Source of the DNA: Actinernus sp. WN-2022
Lineage: Eukaryota; Cnidaria; Anthozoa; Actiniaria; Actinernidae
NCBI GenBank assembly: GCA_030867875.1
Contig: JAOWCC010000019.1
Span: 29,532,966-29,596,965, forward strand
Reading direction: 5' to 3'
DNA length: 64,000 nt
Below, piece after piece: positions 14,921-57,874 of the stretch. The first letter of the stretch is position 1. The number at the start of each line of letters is the position of its first letter. The translations under genes were made by a program, and so were the position numbers. The notes under the pieces were generated by a model. It did not search any database. It was not told where the DNA came from and was given only the letters and a program-made list of their open reading frames with translations.

Positions 14921-17900
14921 CTGTATTACAGACATTGTAGGAAATCGGATAAGTGAAAAAAAATTAATAATTTATTATATTATATTATATCTAAATCTAT
15001 GCAATAATTAAAAGTATATTAAATTATTGTTAAACATGTGAAGAATTAATGTACCACTTTCAATACTAAAAGGTGAACATACCAGTATTTTGAAGATATA
15101 CATTTGTACAATTTTTTAAAGTTTAAGGAAAATAGTAGATTGAAGGGAGCTTCAAGTACATGTACATGTATATGATGTAAAACTACAAACAATATGAATG
15201 TTGAACGAAAAGGAGGATGTTTAAATGTCTTCATCTGACAGAGACAATAATAATTACGGTAATTGATTTGAGACATTCAGATCAAAGCCTGGTCAGAGCC
15301 TGATTCGATCACAGGAGTACAAACAATAGGACTAAGGTCCCTTCTAGGCCTGCCTCTGTCAGTGGACCTGGGATACAAGAAGAAGTGATAACCATTTGCA
15401 GATGTTTCACCAAGGCAGCACCTAAGTTCTACTCAGCTATTTTAAGACCCTGAGTGTTGGTCTGGTCGGGGTTTGAACCTATGACCTCCTGCTCAACAGA
15501 CCAGAGCTTAACCACCGAGCTAATCAGGTGACATAAATACCTCTTATTAACTGAGCATGATGTCCATACCATAAGTTATGGACCAAGTTGTTTTCCCCTT
15601 GATGGCTCTAGAGCATAGTACACAGGCAATAAAATGGGGGGAAATGAGGATCCATAACTTATGGTATGGACCGAGCAAACAAGGTTAATAAGATGTTTAT
15701 TATATGGCTTAGAATTCATTTTCTTTGATACCAGAAGTGGGTGGAAGGTCCGTACAGGAAGTTGTGGATCACAAATTCACCAATCATAGCTCGTGAAATG
15801 AATTAGCTATATATTAATAAACATGTCAATTATTTGATGTTTTTATTATGGCACCTGATAAGCATATGGGTTAAATCTCTTCCTTCTTGTTTTGTAGCTT
15901 TCACAACTTGCAGCATCCATTTCCTGGATTAATGGGGAAATAAAGATCATAATTATTATGTTATTTATTGGCCATTAAGTCCATATCATAGAGAAAAACT
16001 AATAATGAAGGGTTGTGTGGAAAAAGGGCTTAGTGTCTCCTGATCACATTCTAAATTCTCCTTGAATTTCTTTGTTTTCTAAGGGAGAATTTAGAACCTG
16101 CACTATAAAAGGGCCACAACCTGAGGTTAAAGACACTTTCATTGTCAATCAGCCTTTGTCATCTCTGTGACATGCGATGTTCTGCTTGAGTGATCTCCAA
16201 CCTTTTGCATCACACAAAATTCAAATCTTGAATGTCTAACAATACACTAAAAGAGTTTGTAAATTGTTCGAAAACACAAATGAAAGGCAAATTAACTTCA
16301 GTAGCAACTACAATAATACAGACATGAGTTGTTGGGACACTCCAGAATTTTTTTCAGCTGTGCGGTCTTTTTCCTCCTCCTCTCCTCCCTCAATGTTGGG
16401 ACTCAACAGGCCCAATCGTTCTACCCAACATTGGGAAGGAAGAGGAGAAAGTGTCTCAACACTTGTGTCCGCAATTGTAGCTTCCTGCTATTTTTTTTCT
16501 CAGCTTCATTTTCATTTTGCCATCAGCAATTTAGTATTCTCACAGGAGAAGACTGATTACTTGCTTACTGGCTTGACTGTTCTGAATTTGAAATTCAAAT
16601 TTCGAGGGCGACAAGAGGAGGGTCTTTTCCCTTTTATAGTGCAGGTCCTTGTTTAACTGAAAAACAAAATTACCTACAACATACATGTACATTCCTCTTA
16701 TGGACAATGCAATTCTCAACAGCAGGGAGGAAGGTGGAGGGAAGGGGTGAGGAAATTGAACTCAGAATCAAACCTCAAATTGCGACAAACCTCACTCTCT
16801 GGAGCCTCCAAATCTTCTTCTTGAAGGTTGCCATCTACTAGTTTTCTCGCATAATTTACAAAGTCACTTCTCCTCCTGAAAAAGTTATAGTAGAGCATGG
16901 TAACATTAGATTATTTTGTAATACAGAGAAATGGTTCACATCTGCAAAAGGTATAAATTTTAAAGGTACCATAAGTTTTCAAAGGTACTGTACATGTACA
17001 TTAAATACTTATTCTGTAGAAATAATTTTTCAAAATAACAGGAAAGAAAGAAATCCTGTTTCAAATATTATTTTTTTCAATTAAGATTCACCCAATGGGT
17101 AGGTGTAGCACAATAGGCCACTTTAGAAATGAGTAGGGGGCTGGGGCGAGTTTGGTTTTAATATGCAAAGGTGCTTGGGATCGTTACTGGGGACATTAAT
17201 TGCAATATATTTGCCATGTTTCTTTGTATTCTGTAATTAACTGTCCTCATGCAGTAGTGATCGCAAGCGCCTAAAGTTGCAAAACCGAACTCGCCCCAGC
17301 CCCTTACTTGTTTCTAAAGTGGGCAATAGGGACACCACATCCCCTTCAAGATACAACATATTGCATCCCTGTACATGTAAAGGAACACAAATTATCTAGC
17401 TTCATCCTAACAATACAACCAAATGCCCAGGGTCTTCTCTGTCAGATCCAAGATGGCGGCTACTGACTGAGAGAAGACCCTGGTAAAGGCCGAACTATGA
17501 CGTATTCTGATTGGCTCTTCGGTTATGATGCAAATGTTGTTCGAACAATGCTTTTTATTGGCCAAATGGACAGAAACCACAAAGATGATTTGTATACGGT
17601 TTAATTTTCTCAAATTTTATCAATAAAATGATTTTATATAACCTTAAAACAGATTCAATAGATGAAGTGTATTACTCAGTACGTTTCTGGTAAGTTCCAT
17701 CTGTGGGAAAGCCAGGATAAGCTATTAAACCTGAACATGTGCTATCGATCACTTCGCTTCAACGCTAACGGAAAATAAATGGCTTTTTAGAATTCTCTTC
17801 TAGCTTAGATACATCCTGGTAGCATTGTGATACCCTTTCACTGTTTCTTTATCCAAGTAAACTCCATTTCGAGCCATTTAATAGACTTGTTTTCAATGCA

Positions 17901-20900
17901 TCATTCGCTGCATGGAAATACTGTTAATTGCTCCTCGCTCACTCGGGATTGGGATACCTATGGTTTTAACATGATTGTCATGAAATATTCCCATATTTAG
18001 CTAGGCCGCCATCTTAGTTTGCCAAATCACGTGCCGAGATTCTGGAAGTATTTGATCATGTGATCCAGCCTTAATACTACAGGGCTTCTGATACGGTGCG
18101 AAAAAAAAAAGCCAAAAGTTGCGGGATTTTTTGGGTAAAAGTTGCAGGAAAAAAGGCCGAAGTTGCAGGTTTGTTGCGGGATTTTTAATTTGCGAAAAAT
18201 GCGGAAAACATCAATGGAACACGTCCAAATTTACTGTTAATTGCCACTATAAGAGAACAACAAAGCAGAGAAGCACAATGGGGCAGGATTTTTACATCAG
18301 AATATGATAAATTATCAGTGAAAGCGACTTTTTATGTGCTGGATATTTGTTGTGAGATATTGCATTTGAAATGAGGTAAATAAGTGTCTAGTGTTCGTAA
18401 AAATCAGCGAATCAGAATTGTCGTTGTTCCCACGCTCTCCAACGTTAAGTGCGTGGTTGTTCCCATGCTCTCCAACGTTAAGTGCGTGGTGTTTCCGTGC
18501 AGAAGGAACCAAATTAGGCCTTAGCACACTTGCAAGTTTATGCGAAATACTCGAACTACAAATAAAATCATTTCTGACCCAAGTTGACTTTGTTGCCGTT
18601 AATTGCTTTGCCTAGTTTTCTTTTCAGACTTTCCTGAGATGGGCGACCGAGGCTGCCGTGGGGGTAGTGGACTTCTGGCAAGTTGCGTGGATTTTGTTTT
18701 ATATTCAAAGCAGGTTGCAAATTTATCAACACTTCTCAAACGTGCGTTACCAAGGTCCCGATAGCAAACTCCTGATATTTAGGCCAATTCTAAACTTGTC
18801 ACATTGTCACTGATTTAGCTGATCAGTAGCACGCAGAATCCTTGTGCATGTCACTTTAACGCATTGAATATGAGGCAAGTCTGTGACCAACAAAAAACAA
18901 TATCACTAAAAATTCAGACACATTTTGCAATTTCCTAGCAATGTTCTGCAAATATGTGAAGCAGTTCCTCAGTTGTCTATAACCATATCACACGTTATAA
19001 ACTGTGAGGTTACGTTCACTTTTGGCTTTTCTTTACAGAGCGATAGACTTCGTCAATCTCTGCAAGTTTGGTGACCATAAAGGGGCCATTGCCCACTATA
19101 CCAATTGGCCCATAGAATACAGACGCATGAGGAAAACTTTCAATGTCATCACGCTTCGGCCAATCGAATACGAGTGCACCTGCTGAATACAGTAATTTGA
19201 ACTTAACTAGAGATCCCTCTCCGTCTTCCATTGCCCTGCCAACATAAAAACGTCGCACGTATTGCACTGCGTAGTACTTTCCCTTCACTATTGCAGGCTT
19301 CTCGTATCGGTGGATTTCCCCATCGTGCAACTCAACGATCATTAAGTTTCCTAATACCGGAGATTCTTTGACTACCAGTGACGACTGGTGATTCCAACAG
19401 CAAACACCGCGCATATAAGCAAACGAAAACGCCACAGTCGAATCCGTTATCTTGTTGCCCTATGCCCTGTTCTGAATTACAGGAAAAGCCCCATTCCAAT
19501 GAATCAAGATTTGGGCTCAGTTCCTCTAGTACAATGTAGGTGCCACATCTTTCTTATTGCGCTTTCAACCGTTGGTTTGATGAATGCGCCCGCTTTGCTA
19601 TCTAAAGCAAGAATGCGCTTTTCTTTCGGTAACACCACTAATAAAAACCAGTGGTTGCCTCAACCTGGATTGCAAGGTACTAAAATTGCATCTTGGTCAA
19701 GTAGCGGTGCTGTTGCCTTGAACACCTCTTTCATCGGCTTCTTCCCTACAGCATTCTCAAAAGTTTCCCACTCAATGACTTCAGCTTTGATTTCCGTGGT
19801 TTCGGCGAGGAGCTTTAGATGCGCATCTATACCGAAATTATTGAGATAGTTATCGTCGTCGCGAAGATGGCCTCCGAGAAGACTTTGGAGATCCCCCTCG
19901 TCTATAATGCTGCTGTGGCTGTTGAACTTGACAGCACCATCAAGTAAGCAATTCAACAAAGGCTCTTTGTGTTCCGGGAAACAGAAACTGGCCTTTGTCT
20001 GTCGCTGAAGCTTTGAACGTGTCGCTGCATCTAGCCCAAAGTGCACAGCTGGTTCAGCTTTTGACTTTGAGATGTCAGCATTCGGATCTTTATCCTTCTT
20101 GCTTGCATTAGAAAAATAGCCTTTGAGCACAGACCTGAATTTTTTTCCAGGTGCCTGTTTCCCCTTTTTGGCTGCAGCATTGCTTTTCTGACTTGTAAAG
20201 ACTTTGCATTTCTTTGCTGTTGGTTCATGGTCATCCTCTGCTGTATCTTCTCGGTTCTGACTTGCAGAAACATCGAACTTCTTTGCTGTTAGTCTACGGC
20301 CATCCATGACACTAGTACTTTTGTCAGGTTCATGCTGGGACGCTATTGAAGGGGCAGGGTTGGTGTGTGTTGAAGATTCCGGCTTACATGTTCCACTTGA
20401 TGGCCTTGCTTTATCACCAGCGTCTTTCTTCAACGATTTCTCTGTATCTCTGATGGTAGCCATCCCCATTTCAGTAGCAGATCGCTTCTTTGTCTTCTCA
20501 GGCAATGGCATGCAACATTCATCATTAAAGGTACGCTCCATTTCTTCTTCAACCACAGACTTCACTCGAAGATTCCAATTAAGGAAATGGAACGCCTTCA
20601 TAGAATTGTGAGCCAACGACCTTCTCTTTGCGTCTAATATGTTGTTATAAGCGGAAAATTAACGTTCCACGTCATACGACCCAATGGTTGTGGTACAATA
20701 AGTGGAAGCTATCTTGTACAGTTCAGGAAGGGCAACTGCCTTAGCCTTCCAGAATTCCTTCAAATCTAGTTGTCCTGTATTGATATTCTTGACAGCTTGG
20801 GGGGCTATCTTGTTCACATACAAGTTCCACTCTTCCCTTGACACAGAATCCATGCCTGGAACACTGTCAATCGAGCCGTAGGTGCGGTCACAGTCAACAA

Positions 20901-23900
20901 GAATGATTCTTAGGGTCTAGAACTCGAACTTGCTCCAAAAATTGTGATGCTGGTTGGGCACCATCGATCACATACTTTGACAATTTCGTATGTGCGGCTT
21001 TAAAGGCAGATTTAGCTAGAACGAGTATTTCCGCCTTCTCGTCACTAGAATAGTCATATGGGCCGTCTTCAAAGCAAAATTCAAAGTCTTCCTACTTCCC
21101 TTCGGCATTCACTTGCAAGAAGTAGAGGAGATGCCCCATTGTTTCATGCACTGCTGTTACATGTGGCATAGCTTCTTGAAAAAAGTTCAGGCAGCTCAGT
21201 AAGGTGGGAGCCTTGATTTTAACCAAGGCGAGTTTTGCATGGAGTTTCTTCATAAATGCCGGGTCGTCATATATTTCTTCAAGGCGAAGATTAAGGGAAG
21301 CGCTTGCTGAACTTCTATCTCAATTGATTTCATCGGCGATAAATTCTTCAAGGATCTGGTAGTTGTCAGTGAAGTAAATGGCGGAATCGAACCAAGCGCT
21401 CCATTTCTTGGTCATCGGGTTTGGTGGCATTCTTGCATTTTCACCGGTGCGACGTTGCAGGAAATTAAGCAACCTGCTTTTCCTGCCACTTGGGATAAAG
21501 AACAAATTTCGAAAACATTTAATGAACTCGTTAAGCTCAGTAAATTTCTTCTTGAAGTCGCCGGCTACGAGATTAATTATATGACTGTTGCAGGTTATAT
21601 GAACAGCAAGCGGAAAAAGATTTGACAGTGTATCCTTGAAGGCTTTCTTCATATAGGCAACGTTATCGGAATTAAAAACGCGTACACTGTCAAATTAAAG
21701 TCAATGCCAAACTCATTAACTGTCCTTACTACCGCTTGAGAAACCGTTTTGTTGTTGGTCGCGGTCAAAAAATGAGTGTCAAGTAAATATTAAGCTACAG
21801 ATCGGCCAGCTGGTGAAAGTTCATCAAAATCCAATATCACCGCCATTACATCTAGAACGTATCTTCCTTCGTCGTCACTCAACTCGTCCACCATCAAAGC
21901 GACATTTTTACATTGAAGTCGTTCTTTCAGCTCCGCCTTCTCCAACTCATAAACATAGAAAAGATAATAATCTCTTAGCTGTGAGCATTTGGGAATTGCA
22001 CCTCCATTAGTAACCCTGGATTGGAGAAAGTTCCTTATAAGTTCCTTGTTGTCCGACTTGTGCAGAGGTACATGTATGTTTGCCGCGCAGCACGCCTTTA
22101 TCCATTCTTGGCAAATCTTGATTTTCTCCGATTGTGCTGGTGTCTTGCATTCGAAGGACGTTTTGAGTGTCTGCTGTTTCCCTACTGCTGTGCGTGACTT
22201 CTGAATATGTGCAGACGTGTTGAGATGCTTATCGATCGTGTACTTTCTTGTGTGATCGATTACGACATTGCAGGCAGAACAGAAAAGAAGGCCGCTGTCT
22301 GCATGCAGTGTCCCTTTTGGATATTGCCTGGCTCTGTCCGCTGAGTTAATTTTCACTGAAGTGTGGCTATCTTTAACTTTCACAAATTTGTCCATAATAT
22401 TGCCGTGGATTACAATTAAAACACCGTCATGTCACACCATAGAATAGATCGAAATACGAGAGCTACATACTTCAGTGTGGCTATTTTCTACATTGTAAAT
22501 TCTAGATTTGATTCGAATCGACAATAATTTTCACTGATAAACCTGAGAATTCCGCTGATCGATTGATAGCACTTGAGAGAAGGAATAACATTATTCCTGC
22601 CCCAGTGAAGACCACGAGGAGCTATATAACAGACATTTTGATTCGCTTTCTAAAACAATGTGTCAAAATTCAGCCAACCAGAAAACGCGTTAGACTAAAT
22701 GGTCCCAGGCCTTCGCGATAATATTGGCAGGAACGCCTATAGTTGTTAATATTCGCTGACTCTGTGGCGATATTATTTCGATTTGAAGCTCTTTTCGCGA
22801 GGAAAATTGCATATGAAACCCCTAAAAAGGTAAGAAAAATATAGTTCCCCATGCTGAATACCTTCTTCAAGCAAAGTTTCATGAAAATATACCGTTTTGT
22901 CACGGGATTTTGCAGGTTTTATTGGATGTTGCGGGAAGTTGCGGGTTTGGGCAAAAGTTGCGCGGCCGCACCACCGCACTTTATCAGAAGCCGTAATACT
23001 AGGGTCTGAAGTTGCTGCCATCCTGGATCTGACCGAGAAGACACTGGGGACGAGGTTGCCTAACATGCATGTGCAGGAACAAGGAATCAGGGTTAGGTGG
23101 GTTTTCATTTCCAAATGGTGTATCCTTTTCCGAAGATGTATGTTAGCAAAATTTGGACCATGTTCAGAATATGTTCAGGATATGAGATTTTCATGGCTAA
23201 CTCGCTTAATATTACTGGCAGGTGGCTCAAACCTGGATAGACATGGTAGTGGGTCCCTATCAATCACTTAGTGATGATGAAGTAACGATGATGTCATCTG
23301 TCACATGACCATACATGTATCTCCCTCATTTCTAATGCCAGACAGTTCAAACTTGGGACAGGCATGGTATTGGGTCCCTGCAAATCACTTAGTGGGGATG
23401 ACAGTATGATGACATCTGTAGGATCTAGTTCCATTGATTGACATTGGTACGGATTGAATTCTGTTTTATCTGTACCCGTAAGATTTATTGTTTTGTTCAG
23501 CGGTATCTCGCGGTAGATTAGCACCCAGACCCCGGTGCTCGGGGAAGGAGATTCGGAACAGCCATGTTTTGGGGGTTGTTTCGTGGTAATAGTTTATCCT
23601 GTGCATCGGGCACAATTTTCTGCTTATAGCATGCCATGTATATATAATTTGGATAGTTAACACATCAAGGAAGAGCCAGATGGCAATATTTCGTACTAGG
23701 CTGAAGTGTATTAGAGCTCAACGTGTTTGTAAGTATGACATGTTATGCACGATTGTTACGGTTCACACTGTATATGTTTGTGAGTTAGTTTTAGGCGATT
23801 TACTCTCGTTGTATGCCAAGATTATGATGATGCTTAGACTAGTTGTAATTCTATGCTATTCTAGAAACCGTTTGCGTCGAGATGGGAGAAAGTAAAGAAC

Positions 23901-26900
23901 ATTTAAGGACAAAAACTGTTTGTTTTTGTGTATGCTCAACTCGCGCACGTGTTTGACACGAGAGACTTTGGACTTCAAGAAAACCTGTGGTTCGCCAAAT
24001 AGTAGCTGGAGATTGGCGACTACATTAAGTTTAAACACGAGTCTATTAAGGATTCACGGAATTGTCAAGCCATCTACTGTATAATGAGTGCATCCGGATC
24101 TACACATACTTCTGAAATCGAAACTCCCGTTGTGGATGGAGAACGTGGCTCTCGCGTGAGAGAACCGAGCAAGATTTTAGATCAAGAAGCTGTGCTAGCT
24201 GAAAGGGCTGTTCAACTTAGGAACATTAGATCTGGTCACAAGGCATGCCTCACGAAGAAAAGAAACCAATTGATTGATTTTATGTCAAATGAAGGAAATG
24301 TTGAGGGTGTTAAGAGTAAAGTTATTGAGCTTGATGCAGCTTTTCAGATGTTTGCTGGGGCTCATGAACAGTACAGTGAATTGAGTGAACGTCTTCTTGT
24401 TGGGGACAGTGCTCAGGAGTTGACTGAGTATTTCTATAATGAAGATCGTTTAGTTAGTGGCTTAAAGGAGAGAGTGGTTGGTTGGATATCTGGAATGGAG
24501 TTTGTTGATGTTAGGCCTGGAGACTCGGTTAGTAATGTAAGTTCCAGTGGCAGGTCAAGGGCGAGTAGTACAAGGTCTAAGGCCTCAAAGTCCAGCAGCA
24601 CTGCATCTAGTTCAGCAAGGTTGCGATTTGTAGAAGAAGCGGCGAGACGAATGGCGCTAGAAGCTAAGGTAAAGCTGTTAGAGGAAGAGCAGGCATTGCA
24701 AGAAAGGAAATTTCGCCTAAAACAGCAACAGGAGTCATTGAAGTTAAAGTCAGACTTAGCACAAACGGCAGCCAGAGAACAGGTGTATGCAGAAGCAGAT
24801 GCTGTGGAGCGTGGCAGTGGATCAAATGCTAATCCCCATTTTCAACCCTTTCCTGGCTGTGAGAAACAATTGCAGACTAAAGAGCATCAAGGACCAGTAA
24901 AGACAGAAACACTGAGTTACCCCCTGCTTGACCCTAAAGCACCCGAATGGCAACCCGAGAGGGTTATATCTCCTAAAGATGCCAAATACCAGCCCATGCA
25001 CAGTAGTGACCGTGGTGTGCTGGACAAAGATGAGCCAGTTTCGAATTTTGTTGCACTTCAAAGGATGATTGAAGTTCAAGAAAGACAGGCCAAGTGCATG
25101 GAAAATCTTGTGATGCAGCAACATCAAAGTGCACTTGTGCTGACTCTCCCTAAACCAGAGGTTCCACTATTTAGTGGAGACCCGATCGAGTACTGCAATT
25201 TTGTGAGAGCTTTTGACTGTCTCATTGAGGCAAAAACCACCAGTGCTAGTGCTAGATTATACTACCTAGTGCAGTACACAAAGGGAGAGGTACAGGAATT
25301 GATGCAGAGCTGTTTATCCATGAATCCAGAGACAGGGTATGACGAGGCGCGGAAGTTGTTGAAAAGGAAGTATGGTCAGAACTACAAAATTGCTGCTGCA
25401 TATGTTGACAAAATCACCAAGGGTCCTGTACTTAAGTCAGAAGACAGTAAAGGGTTACAGAACCTTTCAGTCATGTTGATTAGTTGTAGGAATACTTTGA
25501 GAGAAGTTGGGCATATTAGCAAGATTGAGAATCCTGACAGTTTAAAGGGTATCATTGAAAGGTTGCCATATGACATGAGGAAGAGATGGCGTTCTGCTGC
25601 AGATAACATATCAGAGAATCAAGATAGAGAAATTAGATTTGATGACATTGTTAATTTTATTGAGAAGGAAGCCCGTGTCACTGCTCATCCTCTGTTTGGG
25701 GACATTTCTAGTAACTCCCGAGAACAGGACAAGGAGAAGAAAGGTCACAGTCCTCGAACCAAGGGACAAAGTTTTGCCACCCAAGTTAAAGAAGAAGAGA
25801 ACTGTTCTGGCAATAATCCAAATAGGGTCCTGCCCACCTATGGGAACAAGAGCTGTTTCATGTGTAGTAAAGATCACAAGCTAGAGGAATGTGGAGAGTT
25901 TAAAGGCAAATGTTACGATGACCGTATTAAGTTTGTTTGGAGCAAGGCTCTCTGTTACAATTGTCTAATCCCTTATCATAGAGTAAAAGAATGCAGGAAA
26001 AGAGACACTTGTAAAGACTGTGGCAGGAAGCATTCGACATTGCTGCACCGCCCTACTTTTGCCAATTCTGATAGAAATCCAGTTAGAGATGTTGGTCATA
26101 AACCTGCGATTAAAGAAGGTCAAAGATCAGGCACTCAAGCCAACAACGGGTTCATTGAGGTTGGAGAAAAAAGGTGTGGACTGACCGAGACCGTGAAATC
26201 AACTATCGGGCTCCCAATCGTGCCGGTTAGGGTGAAGGCTAGAGGAATTGGAGACTCTGTCACCACTTATGCTTTCCTAGATAATGGGTCCAACTCCACA
26301 TTTTGTACCAATGCACTCCTGACACAGTTGGGTCTAGAAGGCGAGAAGACAAGGTTCTCCTTAACGACGCTAGAGAAAGAAAATAGCCAGGTCGAATGCA
26401 GTGTCGTAAGTCTAGAGGTGTATGATCTTGAGGAAAATGAATTTGTTGATCTACCTGTGGTGTTCTCTTCCCCCATGCTACCGGTCTCATCTGATGACAT
26501 TCCTAGGCAGGAAGATGTAGAAAAATGGGCTCATCTACATGGTGTCTATGTGCCTCAAGTCAATGCACAAGTCGGTTTACTGATAGGGAACGACAATGTC
26601 AAAGCCCTCGAGCCGAAGGAGGTCAAACAGAGTCGGGGAGAAGGACCATATGCAGTGAGGACTATCTTCGGTTGGACTGTCAATGGTCCATTGGGTCGTG
26701 AAGGTAGCAGAGCGAGACACACTGCTAATTTTATTAAAGGGGACATTGACTTAGATCAACAGTTCAGGAAGTTCTGTGAACAAGAGTTCAATGATTCAAT
26801 GGCTGATGCTACAACACAAATGTCCCAAGAAGACCATAAAGCAGTTGAGATAATGGAAAGAACAATAGAACTGAAGGAGGGTCATTATGAAATAGCATTG

Positions 26901-29900
26901 CCTTGGAAAAGTTATCCCCCATCTCTACCTAACAACAAGCCCCTGGCAGAACATCGATTGAGACATCTAAAAAGGAGGTTCTGCAGAGATTCTGAGTTGC
27001 ATGGAAAGTATGCAGCAGTCATTGAGGATTATCTCCACAAGGGGTATGCTGAGAAGGTCCCACAGGATGCACTGAATCGCTCAGATGGATTGGTGTGGTA
27101 TTTGCCTCATCATCCAGTATTTCACCCAGAGAAACCTGACAAGACCAGGGTTGTATTTGACTGTGCTGCTAAGTACAGGAACATTTCTCTGAATGACTGT
27201 TTGTTCCAGGGTCCTGACTTGAACAACACCTTAGTCGGAGTGTTAACAAGATTTAGACAAGAACCTGTAGCTTTGATGTCTGACATTGAAGCCATGTTCA
27301 ATCAAGTTTGTGTTACGCCAAATCAATGTGATGCTCTAAGGTTCTTATGGTGGCCAGGGAATGATATGGATCAAGTACCACAAGAGTTCAGGATGAAAGT
27401 TCATTTGTTTGGTGGAGTGTCATCACCTAGTTGTTCCAGCTATGCGCTGCTTAAGACAGCTGAGGACAATGAGAGCACATTCGCCCCAGCCACTATAGAG
27501 ACAGTGAGAAAGAACTTCTATGTGGATGACTGTCTGAAGGCAGTCAAAGATGAAAGTTCAGCTATTATTCTTATGCAAGAACTCTGTGAGCTCCTATCTA
27601 AGGGAGGATTTCGTCTGACCAAGTGGTTGTCCAATTCTCAACGGGTGACGTCATCTGTTCCTGAATCTGAAAGAGCTAAATCAGTGAAGGACTTAGATCT
27701 CGAAGGCCTGCCAGTCGAACGAGCTCTGGGTGTCAACTGGGACATGGAAACGGACAAGTTTGGATTCAAGATCAAGATCAAAGACAAACCTTTTACACGA
27801 CGTGGCATCCTATCGATTGTGAGCTCAGTATATGACCCTTTGGGGTTTGCAGGTCCATTCATACTACCAGCCAAGGCTCTACTGCAAGACCTTTGCAGAA
27901 GAAAGTTGGGGTGGGACGATGCTATTCCAGAAGAGTATTTAGGCTGTTGGCAGCAGTGGCTCCATGAGCTCCCAAAGTTAGCAGAATACTCTATTGATCG
28001 CTGTGTTAAGCCAAGTGGATTTTCTGAAGTTGTGTCCTGCCAACTTCATCATTTCAGTGATGCCTCCCAGACTGGTTATGGTGCAGTGACCTACCTTCGA
28101 CTTGTGGATAAGCAAGGCCACATTCATTGTGCTTTAATGATGGCTAAATCAAGGCTAGTCCCTTTAAAGGCAATCACTATACCACGACTAGAATTATCTG
28201 CTGCAACAGTGGCTGTTAGACTAGACAAGATGATGAGGAAGGAATTGGAGTTGCCCATTGACATCTCACACTTCTGGACCGACAGCACTACAGTACTCAA
28301 GTATATCCACAATGAAGACAAGAGGTTCCACACATTTGTAGCCAACAGAATAGCCATTATTCGTGATGGCTCGGAGCCCTCGCAGTGGAGACATGTGGAG
28401 ACAAAGCTGAATCCAGCCGATGATGCCTCCAGAGGACTTACAGTGGATGACTTTCTTGCTGCTACACGATGGGTGAAAGGGCCACCATTTCTGTGGCAAC
28501 CTGAAGAAACTTGGCCTTGTTCATCGTCAGGCATAGATGAGGTCTCCAACAGTGATGCTGAAGTAAAGAAGGAAGCAAGAACTTGCACCATAGTTGTCAG
28601 TGACACAATTATTGAAACAGACAAGATACTGGAAAGATTCTCCTCATGGCAGGATTTGAAGAAATTTGTTGCCTGGATGCTCAGATATAAAGGAAATCTA
28701 CGCGAAGCGAGTCAAAGAAAGTCTGGAGCCACAAAGCAGAACGAGTTGAAGTCAACGTTGGAACCAATAACGGTAGATGAGATAAAAGTAGCTGAACTTA
28801 GCATTGTGAGATATGTTCAAGGGAAGCACTTTGCAGAAGAAATTAACAGCCTCAAGAGAGTCCAGACCAAGGATGGTTGTGAGCCAAGTGCATGTATGAA
28901 GGCAAGTGCAGTAAGGAAGGGCAGTAGTATCTTCCACTTGGATCCAATCCTCATTGATGGTGTTTTGAGAGTTGGTGGACGATTACGGCGTGCTTCATTA
29001 CCTGTAGATGCCATGCACCAAATACTTCTGCCCAAAGATCACCATGTTACGAACTTGATAGTTCGCTATTATCATCTCATGTCTGGACACTCGGGGAGAG
29101 AATATGTGCTGTCATTGCTACGAGGAAAGTTTTGGGTCATAAAGGCAAATACAACAGTGCGGAAACTCCTGGCAAGTTGCTTTGACTGTCGTCGGAGACA
29201 AGGCTCAGTGAGTGAGCAGAAGATGGCAGATCTACCCAAGGATCGTGTGACGGCAGACCTACCTCCATTCAGCCAAGTGGGTGTTGATTTCTTTGGCCCA
29301 TTCATGGTAAAGCAAGGGCGTAGTCAAGTGAAAAGATATGGCTGCATATTTACCTGTTTGGCCATCAGAGCAGTACATATTGAGGTGACTCATTCACTCG
29401 ATACTGACTCATTCATCAATGCTTTGCGTCGTTTCATTGCAAGAAGAGGGAGGCCGGTGCTGATAAGAAGTGATAATGGTGGCAATTTTGTTTGTGGAGA
29501 GAAGGACATCCGTAATTGCATTGCTCAGTGGAACAATCAGCAAATCCATGAAGCTCTGCTGCAGCAAGACGTGCAGTGGATTTTCAATCCTCCAGCCGGG
29601 TCTCATCATGGTGGTATTTGGGAGCGATGCATCAGAACCACGCGAAAGATCCTGAATGCCCTTCTCAGAGAGCAGATTCTTAGAGATGAGGCTTTGCTGA
29701 CTCTGATGTGCGAGGTGGAGGCGATTATAAATGGACGGCCCATTACAAAGGTTTCTAGTGACCCTAGAGATCTAGAAGCTCTCACTCCGAACCACTTACT
29801 TCTGCTCAGATCTGGATCCATCCTACCACCTGGAAGCTTCAGGAAGGAGGATTTATATTCACGTAGAAGGTGGCGTCAGGTTCAGTTTCTGGCAGATCAG

Positions 29901-32900
29901 TTCTGGAGACGTTGGACCAGAGAGTACCTCCCATTGCTGCAGCAACGGCAGAAGTGGAACCACCCTCACAGAAATTTGGCCATTGACGATATTGTGCTGA
30001 TAGTCGATGATACTTCCCCACGAAGCTTCTGGCCGATGGCAAGAGTAGTTGAAGTGATGCCCGGCAGAGATGGCTGTGTACGACGGGTGAAAGTTAGGAC
30101 CAGGACATCCGTGTTAGACCGCCCTATTGACAAGTGTGTGTTACTGGAAGCCAGCAATGCTGAACACTAATGAGAGTATCAACGATGCTTACACCGCAGA
30201 ATATCAACGATGCCTGCACCACAGAATATCCATGATGTCTATATCTAAATCAGGGGATTTCAATTATGAACACTGAACTTTGAACATTGTTTAAATGTGT
30301 CACCTCTGTCACATTTAATGGGGTGGGAATGTAGGATCTAGTTCCATTGATTGACATTGGTACGGATTGAATTCTGTTTTATCTGTACCCGTAAGATTTA
30401 TTGTTTTGTTCAGCGGTATCTCGCGGTAGATTAGCACCCAGACCCCGGTGCTCGGGGAAGGAGATTCGGAACAGCCATGTTTTGGGGGTTGTTTCGTGGT
30501 AATAGTTTATCCTGTGCATCGGGCACAATTTTCTGCTTATAGCATGCCATGTATATATAATTTGGATAGTTAACACATCAAGGAAGAGCCAGATGGCAAT
30601 ATTTCGTACTAGGCTGAAGTGTATTAGAGCTCAACGTGTTTGTAAGTATGACATGTTATGCACGATTGTTACGGTTCACACTGTATATGTTTGTGAGTTA
30701 GTTTTAGGCGATTTACTCTCGTTGTATGCCAAGATTATGATGATGCTTAGACTAGTTGTAATTCTATGCTATTCTAGAAACCGTTTGCGTCGAGATGGGA
30801 GAAAGTAAAGAACATTTAAGGACAAAAACTGTTTGTTTTTGTGTATGCTCAACTCGCGCACGTGTTTGACACGAGAGACTTTGGACTTCAAGAAAACCTG
30901 TGGTTCGCCAAATAGTAGCTGGAGATTGGCGACTACAACATCATTGTTCACATAATCTTAACCTGAGTATCAGTCCCTCTCTCCCTTCCTTTTCACCACC
31001 CCTACCCCCTAAGGAAGGAAGGGAAAGAGGGCCTGACACAATTCTTTTCCTGGCCGCTTGCTAAAAAGCCATATTCTGGACTTTTCCTTCATTGGACTTT
31101 TCCTTCACAAAAGAAACAGGATGTTGCATTCAAACATGACTTTTGATTGACATAAACGTCAATCATATTTCTGGATTTAATTAAAACCATTCAAACAAAT
31201 TAGACAAAAACGTCAATCACATGTCAATCACAAAGATTTTGGGTAAAAAGCTGCTGCTTATCTGCCACTGTTAACAGTATGTTGTTTTTAATATGACTCC
31301 CCCAGAATAAAGCTTTTTATGTTAGCATCCCCCTGGCACTAATCCTTTCCAAAATTTTATTTCAGGTTGAAATTTTTAAACTAGGTTGAATTTTTTAAAC
31401 TAGTAAGGTTGAATTTTTTTAACCTACATGTAGGTTATAATTTTTAATCTAGGTTGAAATTTTTTAACCTAGGTTGAAATTTTTTAACCTACACCTGTAG
31501 GTTATTTTTTTCAAACTAGTTGTTCTGCTAAGTATGTATGAGTTTTAGTGACTACATTTTGTAGCTCTAATCACCCAAATTAGTGAGCACTCTTTGTGGA
31601 CGGTTAGGGTGTTTTTAAATGTAGGGGTAGGGTTTGTATTAGTTCACAGGACCATCGAAGAAGCATTATTTTTCTGTGTTGTTCAGTGATCTAAATTTAG
31701 TGACTATAGCTCTAAAAACCATAACTTTAAGTGAGCACCCTTTGTTGATGGTTAGGGTGTTTTTAAATGTAGGGGTAGGGTTTGTATTAGTTCACAGGAC
31801 CATCAAAGAAGCATTACCGTATTTACCCGTGTATAAGCCGCACCCGTAGATAAGCCGCACCCCAGGAAAAAAACTTTTTTTGAAAAATACAAAAAATAAT
31901 TAGAAAATCTTTTGTCCGAGTTCATAAACGCTTGTACTTGATGCCAAACTTCTTCAAAAAAAGAATCTTTTGTTGGAGTTCATAAACACTCATACTTGAA
32001 GCAAAACTTCATCAGATTGTCATAAATAAATAATCACAACTTTAATTTCAACTTGCCTTGTCATTTCTTGTGTATATTTTAACCTGCAGTCTTTAAATCA
32101 CTCCAGAATTCTTCCGCATTTATTCCCCAATTAACTAACAACAATTCCAAAAAACCGCTTTCCTTTAATTGCTAGAGCAAGAAAGGTTTTCTGGCATAAC
32201 AATACTTGCACGAGTAGGTCAGGTCCGCCATCTTGGATTTTAATTAACTAGTGCCAATCTCCCACGTGTAAAATTGCGAAGAATGCCTGGTTGTTTAGAT
32301 GCATGCTTTGACAAGCACTGCAAATCAGCATGTTTTGGAAGGTAAATAAGCTTGATCACGTTTAAATATTCACGAAATTCTAATATATTAGGTCTAAGGT
32401 AGGTCTTAGAAGAGTTTTTGCTTTCATTCTTTCAAATTGCGTGTGTATTTTCAATGATTATACTTAAATTGCTATATTACACGATCTTTCTCTGTTATTT
32501 GTTTTACTTTTTCTTCTTCTTTCAGATGAAAACAAACGGTAATTTATGCAAATTTTTGATACCTTTTCTAGGTGTTCCCGTAGATAAGCCGCACCCCCGA
32601 TTTTTAACGAAAATTTTGGGTGAAAAAGTGCGGCTTATACACGGGTAAATACGGTATTTTCTGTGTTGTTCAGTGATCTAAATTTAGTGACTATAGCTCT
32701 AAAAACCCTAATTTTAAGTGAGCACCCTTTGTGGATGGTTAGGGTGTTTTTAAATGTAGGGGTAGGGTTTGTATTAGTTCACAGAACCATTGAAGAAGCA
32801 CATACAGCGTTTGGGTAGGGTATTCTGCAATTGCCCCAATAAGGCTTTTGTTACTCTTTGACTTTATCGTACTTAAGACTTAATTCTTGTGCAGGTAAAT

Positions 32901-57799: not shown

Positions 57800-57874
57800 T
57801 GACTCGATAGCTCAGTTGGTAGAGCGCCAGACATGTAACCTGGAGGTTGTTGGGTTTGAGTCCCACTTAGGTCA
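57800..57874 (+). tRNA. tRNA-like sequence, anticodon TGT (Thr-like), probably a pseudogene
   Basis: 75 bases with a good D arm (AGCTC..GAGC), anticodon stem CCAG/CTGG with loop reading CA-TGT-AA, and a T arm TGGG-TTTGAGT-CCCA. The acceptor stem pairs in only about five of seven positions and the T stem is short. It is set between copies of the palindrome arm, so it is probably a SINE head or a degenerate tRNA. Confidence 0.45.

Follow-up and report, generated by a model that had tools for sequence, protein, structure and literature searches.

A SENP/Ulp1-type protease joined to a hAT-type transposase in a single reading frame of anthozoan transposons

We analysed a window of 64,000 nucleotides from Actinernus sp. 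WN-2022 (contig JAOWCC010000019.1, positions 29,532,966 to 29,596,965), which contains a dead copy of a hAT-type transposon of 4,916 bp on the minus strand (18080..22995). Intact relatives of this element encode a hAT-type transposase and a C48 (SENP/Ulp1-type) protease in one polypeptide. Their anatomy is almost certainly that of a zinc finger, an RNase H-like transposase, a dimerisation region, a linker predicted to be disordered, the C48 domain and a C-terminal domain predicted to be a barrel, all in one frame; because this frame is unbroken, a single transcript across both domains would follow. A first-pass annotation of the window had proposed such a fusion from the broken copy, and the proposal holds: both domains share a frame in the intact relatives, they lie within the ends of the transposon itself, and all fused proteases group together in one clade. 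The contrary arrangement, a protease on a separate downstream element or in another gene, was looked for, and the intact relatives show the opposite.

Intact copies were sought in this genome and in others, and single-frame transposase-protease copies were found. A search of the 1.39 Gb Actinernus genome with the window DNA gave at least 46 matches (40 of 69 candidates scored), comprising copies of the same family (family A) with 89-98% identity, members of a family B with about 65% identity in the protease part, many of them near-identical to one another, and short matches to the ends. The first 20 loci fetched contained 12 family B and 8 family A copies. Four family B loci (L010, L012, L014, and L015) have an open frame of 1,151-1,153 codons that covers transposase and protease, and the Met at codon 91 of this frame aligns with the MDKF start of the relatives, giving a protein of about 1,063 residues. 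The eleven family B loci other than L010 are 98.1-99.6% identical to it across the element and lie in separate genomic places (L011 in two pieces). A protein search of the genome returned at least 54 matching rows (40 of 889 candidates scored), some of which cover the N-terminal part only. Five further loci from three further families likewise hold transposase and protease in one frame, with lengths of 1,100 (L029), 1,059 (L030), 1,134 (L031), 1,052 (L032), and 1,035 codons (L033), so that nine single-frame fused copies are spread across four families. In L030, L032, and L033, the open frame begins past the first residues or past the zinc finger, the latter being the case in family E (L032 and L033). 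These three loci may have lost the start or may have an exon further upstream; for the family E frames, the choice would be between such an exon and a shorter protein.

The ends of the transposon enclose both domains. Among 26 copies analysed for ends (the window copy and L009-L033), both ends were located in 20, and an exact 6-bp target-site duplication flanks 13 of these 20. L025 matches at five of six positions, and L009, L010, L015, L016, L024, and L029 have no match in register; no end pair was found among the 26 for L021, L022, L027, L031, L032, and L033. The window copy has the inverted ends CAGGGCTTCTGATA and TATCAGAAGCCGTA, with two mismatches to the motif in both 14-nt ends taken together, and is bordered by the duplication ATACTA at 18074..18079 and 22996..23001. 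Inverted-repeat detection and end comparison place its terminal inverted repeats at 18080..18100 (plus strand, 3' side of the gene) and 22975..22995 (minus strand, 5' side). The family B ends read CAGGGCTTCTGACAGGGTGCG, 21 nt that are exact in 10 of the 12 loci; the inverted ends measure 17 nt in L010 and 26 nt at 96% in L028, and the family E 3' end in L032 reads CAGATGCCCTG by eye. Inside the ends of the window copy lie subterminal repeats, read in the sequence and counted, of the form GTTGC[G/A]GG at 18115..18190 and GTTGCGGG at the opposite end (22913..22950, both plus strand); GTTGCGGG occurs four times in the first 400 and last 600 bp of the element and is absent from its middle. Since the relatives are single-framed and ends with a duplication surround both domains, two elements side by side, nested or one downstream of the other, are excluded. 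A domesticated host gene is ruled out in this genome by the many copies with ends and duplications; it is a possibility for LOC141879906 of Acropora (P0005), known here from its protein alone. A 49-nt inverted repeat, 82% complementary, also flanks the window element on both sides (17416-17464 and 23010-23058), and the hAT copy may have inserted inside or beside another repeat.

The window gene was read by protein comparison with the intact relative P0001. It begins with MDKF at 22395 on the minus strand, the strand of all parts described here. The start, a C-C-H-H zinc finger, and the predicted N-terminal DNA-binding region of the transposase occupy 21694..22395, with one stop and 73.8% identity to residues 91-323 of P0001, and the hAT core follows at 20906..21694, with two stops and 69.2% identity to residues 322-583. 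In the predicted model of the relative P0004, the region homologous to this core finds its structural match in Hermes. The C-terminal dimerisation region (20595..20901) and the Lys-rich linker (20010..20595) have approximate limits; the linker is predicted to be disordered in P0004, with a predicted local distance difference test (pLDDT) score below 50 at residues 558-741. The C48 domain lies at 19332..19935, where Pfam Peptidase_C48 and an alignment of relatives place it and its start is estimated, with catalytic codons for His at 19651-19653, Asp at 19600-19602, Gln at 19452-19454, and Cys at 19434-19436. Identity to P0001 is 48.0% over 20901-19543 (from the dimerisation region through the linker into the beginning of the protease), 50.0% over 19532-19305 (the Gln and Cys part), and 44.5% over the C-terminal stretch 19423-19019 (residues 1015-1151). 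Within this last stretch, 19019..19342 encodes one more conserved domain, about 100 residues long and predicted to form a beta-barrel and a helix (model pLDDT 78.7), for which comparison of the predicted model gave no confident structural relative.

All the parts that the first-pass annotation had named, from the hAT core to the four catalytic residues, are present. The unit, however, exceeds the limits 19332..22395 that it had been given, as the protein runs on to 19019 and the element spans 18080-22995. The single TAA that had been described, at 20659-20661, is the only interruption where the dimerisation region passes into the linker, but a TGA at 19660-19662, in frame and directly ahead of the catalytic His, and three stops before the dimerisation region had been missed. 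Likewise, the parts share one frame throughout in the intact relatives and not in the window copy, where Gln and Cys stand in a different frame from His and Asp. Over the matched stretches, the window copy has six stops, the last trailing off where the letters no longer seem homologous, together with four or more frame changes, and it is therefore dead. Stop readthrough need not be invoked, the TAA being decay of this copy.

In Pfam searches, the window piece matched Peptidase_C48 with an E value of 8.5e-07 (29.4 bits, cut-off 20.7), and its Dimer_Tnp_hAT match, in a piece severed by the TAA, reached 17.1 bits, under the cut-off of 21.4. Both domains pass in the intact P0001, with 53.5 bits for C48 and 33 bits for the dimerisation domain (PF05699, cut-off 21.4), and the matches are therefore far beyond chance. 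A chance frame is ruled out by the Pfam matches in window and relative and by the alignment of the catalytic residues.

A first protein search gave 26 homologues, of which 16 carry both PF02902 (C48) and PF05699, six the dimerisation domain only, three C48 only, and one C48 next to a ubiquitin hydrolase domain; the proteins of named origin come from Acropora palmata (P0005) and Actinostola sp. (P0015, P0023, and P0025). A search with the transposase half gave 45 proteins (7,998 candidates scored), including relatives without C48 at 32-37% identity (P0050, P0051, P0058, and the coelacanth protein P0059). By eye, P0051 looks complete at 622 residues, running from Met to LEFLYWNLNTGP and stopping directly after the dimerisation region. 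P0050, P0051, and P0058, whose contigs measure 2.2-3.7 kb, likely have no protease. The plain transposase thus occurs outside the fused group, and the protease was apparently added at its C-terminal end.

Both halves were placed in quick trees made without bootstrap. Of the 29 C48 domains in the protease tree, 20 are hAT-fused, and these form one side of a branch with a value of 100 in the Shimodaira-Hasegawa-like approximate likelihood ratio test (SH-aLRT). The transposase tree holds 21 halves, 17 fused and four without C48, with P0021, P0022, and P0025 falling under the 300-residue limit. Close groups common to both trees are family B with P0006/P0012, adjoining P0003/P0004 and family D; family C with P0007/P0008; family E with P0010/P0017; and P0005/P0009 with P0015/P0023. 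The trees conflict for P0016, whose transposase is B-like and groups with P0006/P0012 whereas its protease sits with family C on a long branch, possibly as a chimera or module swap or as an artefact, and for family E, which joins C by its protease (87) but lies outside all others by its transposase (88). The simplest reading would be one capture followed by joint inheritance, with later exchange of the protease possible in single lineages. Given one clade of fused proteases together with near-identical intact copies, the fusion dates far back and its elements have transposed in recent times. The proportion of nonsynonymous differences (pN) is well under that of synonymous differences (pS), with synonymous sites near saturation, in comparisons of family A (the window copy and L020-L026, with L027 left out) with family B and of three family pairs; the near-equal values for L021 and L022 may not be independent.

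The predicted structure of the protease half was compared as the first-pass annotation had suggested, and SENP1 and SENP2 are nearest to it in fold and in sequence; the fold is that of C48, and the folds matched also include viral proteases. The catalytic His, Asp, Cys, and Gln are kept in all 18 fused rows of the alignment.

The protease-barrel module also occurs on a second type of transposon. With the protease plus the region C-terminal to it as query, a search brought up P0029-P0035, proteins of 912-1,061 residues for which C48 is listed and no dimerisation domain, and in P0029-P0032, P0034, and P0035 the N-terminal part is unrelated to the hAT-type proteins. C48 alone rose above the Pfam cut-off in four of those six scanned, in P0026, and in P0035. 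Searching the Actinernus genome with P0030 returned at least 49 rows (43 of 1,331 candidates scored), and 25 of the 49 span at least residues 29-1016 of its 1,061 without a stop. Two copies of this unclassified transposon, L034 and L035 (691-5234 of G000:C540 and G000:C1312), share 99.96% identity across 4,544 bp and lie in separate genomic places. GGTCAGTTCCAT and ATGGAATTGTCC form their ends, and 4-bp duplications, ATTA and ATAT, flank the two copies, whose boundaries were set by eye. Two unrelated transposon types thus share one protease-barrel module. P0028 (1,326 residues) joins a ubiquitin hydrolase domain, C48, and what by eye may be a MULE-type transposase (MULE, Mutator-like element) with a SWIM-like motif; it is possibly a further transposon that carries proteases of this kind.

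What could the protease do for the element? We favour, at a probability of roughly 0.45, a mechanism in which the transposase-tethered protease removes SUMO from host silencing factors at the element. The whole frame would be transcribed and translated, and the zinc-finger part would bring the protein to the CGG-core repeats near the element ends. There, the dimerised transposase would cut and rejoin DNA while the tethered protease stripped SUMO, or less likely NEDD8 or ubiquitin, from silencing factors and histones, so that the element would stay transcribed and its ends open. A possible task of the C-terminal barrel is to help keep the protein on chromatin or substrate. This mechanism builds on one gene in one frame, intact near-identical copies, a conserved active site, and a single clade of fused proteases. 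Transposon repression in flies requires components of the SUMO pathway, recruitment of SetDB1 requires auto-SUMOylation of KAP1 or Su(var)2-10, and it has been proposed that a 'SUMO spray' covers many of the proteins present at transposons (PMC9406493). A protease tethered to the element ends would be suited to undo such deposition. SUMO had been named as the target in the first-pass annotation as well, and the kinship with SENP1 and SENP2 agrees with it. However, one feature of the sequence weighs against SUMO as the modifier: in place of the WLND motif of SENP, 16 of the 17 fused rows with letters there have Y-L-x-N, and P0016 has Y-L-S-A. The WLND motif contacts SUMO and is dispensable for membership in C48. 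Removal of NEDD8 or ubiquitin rather than SUMO, aiding transposition through control of replication or repair, seems unlikely to us.

The chief rival, which we consider improbable though worth keeping in sight, is that the protease acts on its own polypeptide, removing SUMO or ubiquitin from the transposase or its dimer partners and thereby raising stability or activity while host chromatin is unaffected. A tether makes this the simplest chemistry, and a protective role for transposition proteins has been proposed for the VTD deubiquitinases of Helitrons (PMC9741609). Nonetheless, the idea that the element edits its own SUMO marks, raised in the first-pass annotation, gains no help from the SUMO consensus motif, which occurs 0-3 times per protein against means of 3.3-4.8 in shuffled sequence and lies below the mean in all eight proteins counted; the argument is mild, as the count is crude and the eight are mutually related. 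C48-like proteases of some viruses perform maturation cleavage, and the fusion protein might be cut into transposase and accessory parts in the same manner. The long disordered stretch predicted between the halves and the viral proteases among the matched folds would suit such a role, to which we assign a low likelihood. As for a neutral or decaying passenger, recently acquired or a separate element nested behind the transposase, the broken window copy would fit, and plant Ulp1 captures have been called transduplications (PMC13317346); nine single-frame copies in four families, conserved catalytic residues, pN well under pS, the single protease clade, and ends with a duplication around both domains make it highly improbable. 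Beyond the hAT elements, a broader view that we hold tentatively, as possible rather than probable, makes the protease-barrel a mobile cassette by which DNA transposons of animals escape silencing. It would have been taken up within the same lineage by at least two unrelated transposase types (hAT and the unclassified one with 4-bp duplications), and, being built into a transposase that would bind the element ends, it would strip SUMO exactly at the element, mirroring the SUMO deposition through which hosts probably silence transposons.

The element is filed as hAT on its transposase, which is of the Hermes RNase H-like type and not of the MULE or CACTA type. The dimerisation region of P0001 and the short terminal inverted repeats agree with this, and the duplication of 6 bp is a departure. 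An 8-bp duplication is customary for hAT elements without defining them, and subgroups with shorter ones exist. The N-terminal part, zinc finger included, has the C-C-H-H pattern and an NGG-IPK-QL block and may resemble that of CGGBP1-type hAT elements (hAT-19 subclass). As candidates for the CGG-containing subterminal binding sites of that lineage, TGCGG-core repeats cluster towards the ends in four elements, taken from families A, B, and C, in a count without shuffle control. The coelacanth relative P0059 (a DUF659 protein, 32% identity to the transposase) comes from Latimeria, the genome of which has 62 CGGBP genes (Yellan et al. 2021, PMC8097297). In contrast to CGGBP1-type hAT elements, those described here add the linker, C48, and the barrel, and the excerpts of PMC8097297 mention no protease.

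The association of transposons with Ulp1 is already known. As the first-pass annotation noted, plant Mutator-like elements (Kaonashi, KIU) carry a C48/Ulp1 domain conserved over long times (PMC13317346, PMC2528002), and KIU has been linked to hypomethylation of related elements (PMC13317346). Those are plant elements of another superfamily, however, with Ulp1 in a VANC-type gene, one of three, and not in the transposase chain. CACTA-ULP elements occur in grapevine and rice, and proteins reported from rice combine a Tnp2 transposase with a ULP1 domain (PMC2528002); the transposase there is of the CACTA type, and the elements belong to plants. A C48 peptidase is also found on the CryptonF and CryptonS DNA transposons of oomycetes, for which domain shuffling between element groups was considered (PMC3212892); these use a tyrosine recombinase, and in some CryptonS the peptidase is an extra protein. 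Helitrons with VTD and OTU deubiquitinases, including several cnidarian genes that fuse VTD with transposon-associated domains (PMC9741609), likewise place a ubiquitin-family protease inside an animal transposon, but differ in protease family (the VTD active site being Asp-x-His) and in transposon class. According to the first-pass annotation, a fusion to an animal hAT is not known, which fits our searches: no hAT element with Ulp1/C48, animal or other, is described among the papers listed from the full-text literature searched (titles and abstract openings, with Repbase reports and most subscription journals outside it). As far as searched, three things are new: a hAT transposase and a SENP-type protease in a single polypeptide, the occurrence of this fusion in two or more named genera of Anthozoa, and a module shared with a second transposon.

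Elsewhere in the window, an unbroken frame of 2,054 codons at 24006-30170 on the plus strand appears by eye to be a BEL/Pao-type retroelement polyprotein, and 57801-57874 gives a tRNA match above the Rfam gathering score (42.7 bits) where ARAGORN reports none.

SUMO-based silencing of transposons is established in flies and mammals. To our knowledge, the answer of animal elements to it is largely open. A SENP-type protease within a transposase, kept intact through recent transposition, is a direct and testable candidate counter-measure, and the occurrence of the module on a second type of transposon suggests a use for elements of different kinds. Ready controls are at hand in the separable protease, its catalytic Cys, and the relatives without protease. 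Moreover, the fused proteins may serve as DNA-targeted deSUMOylases.

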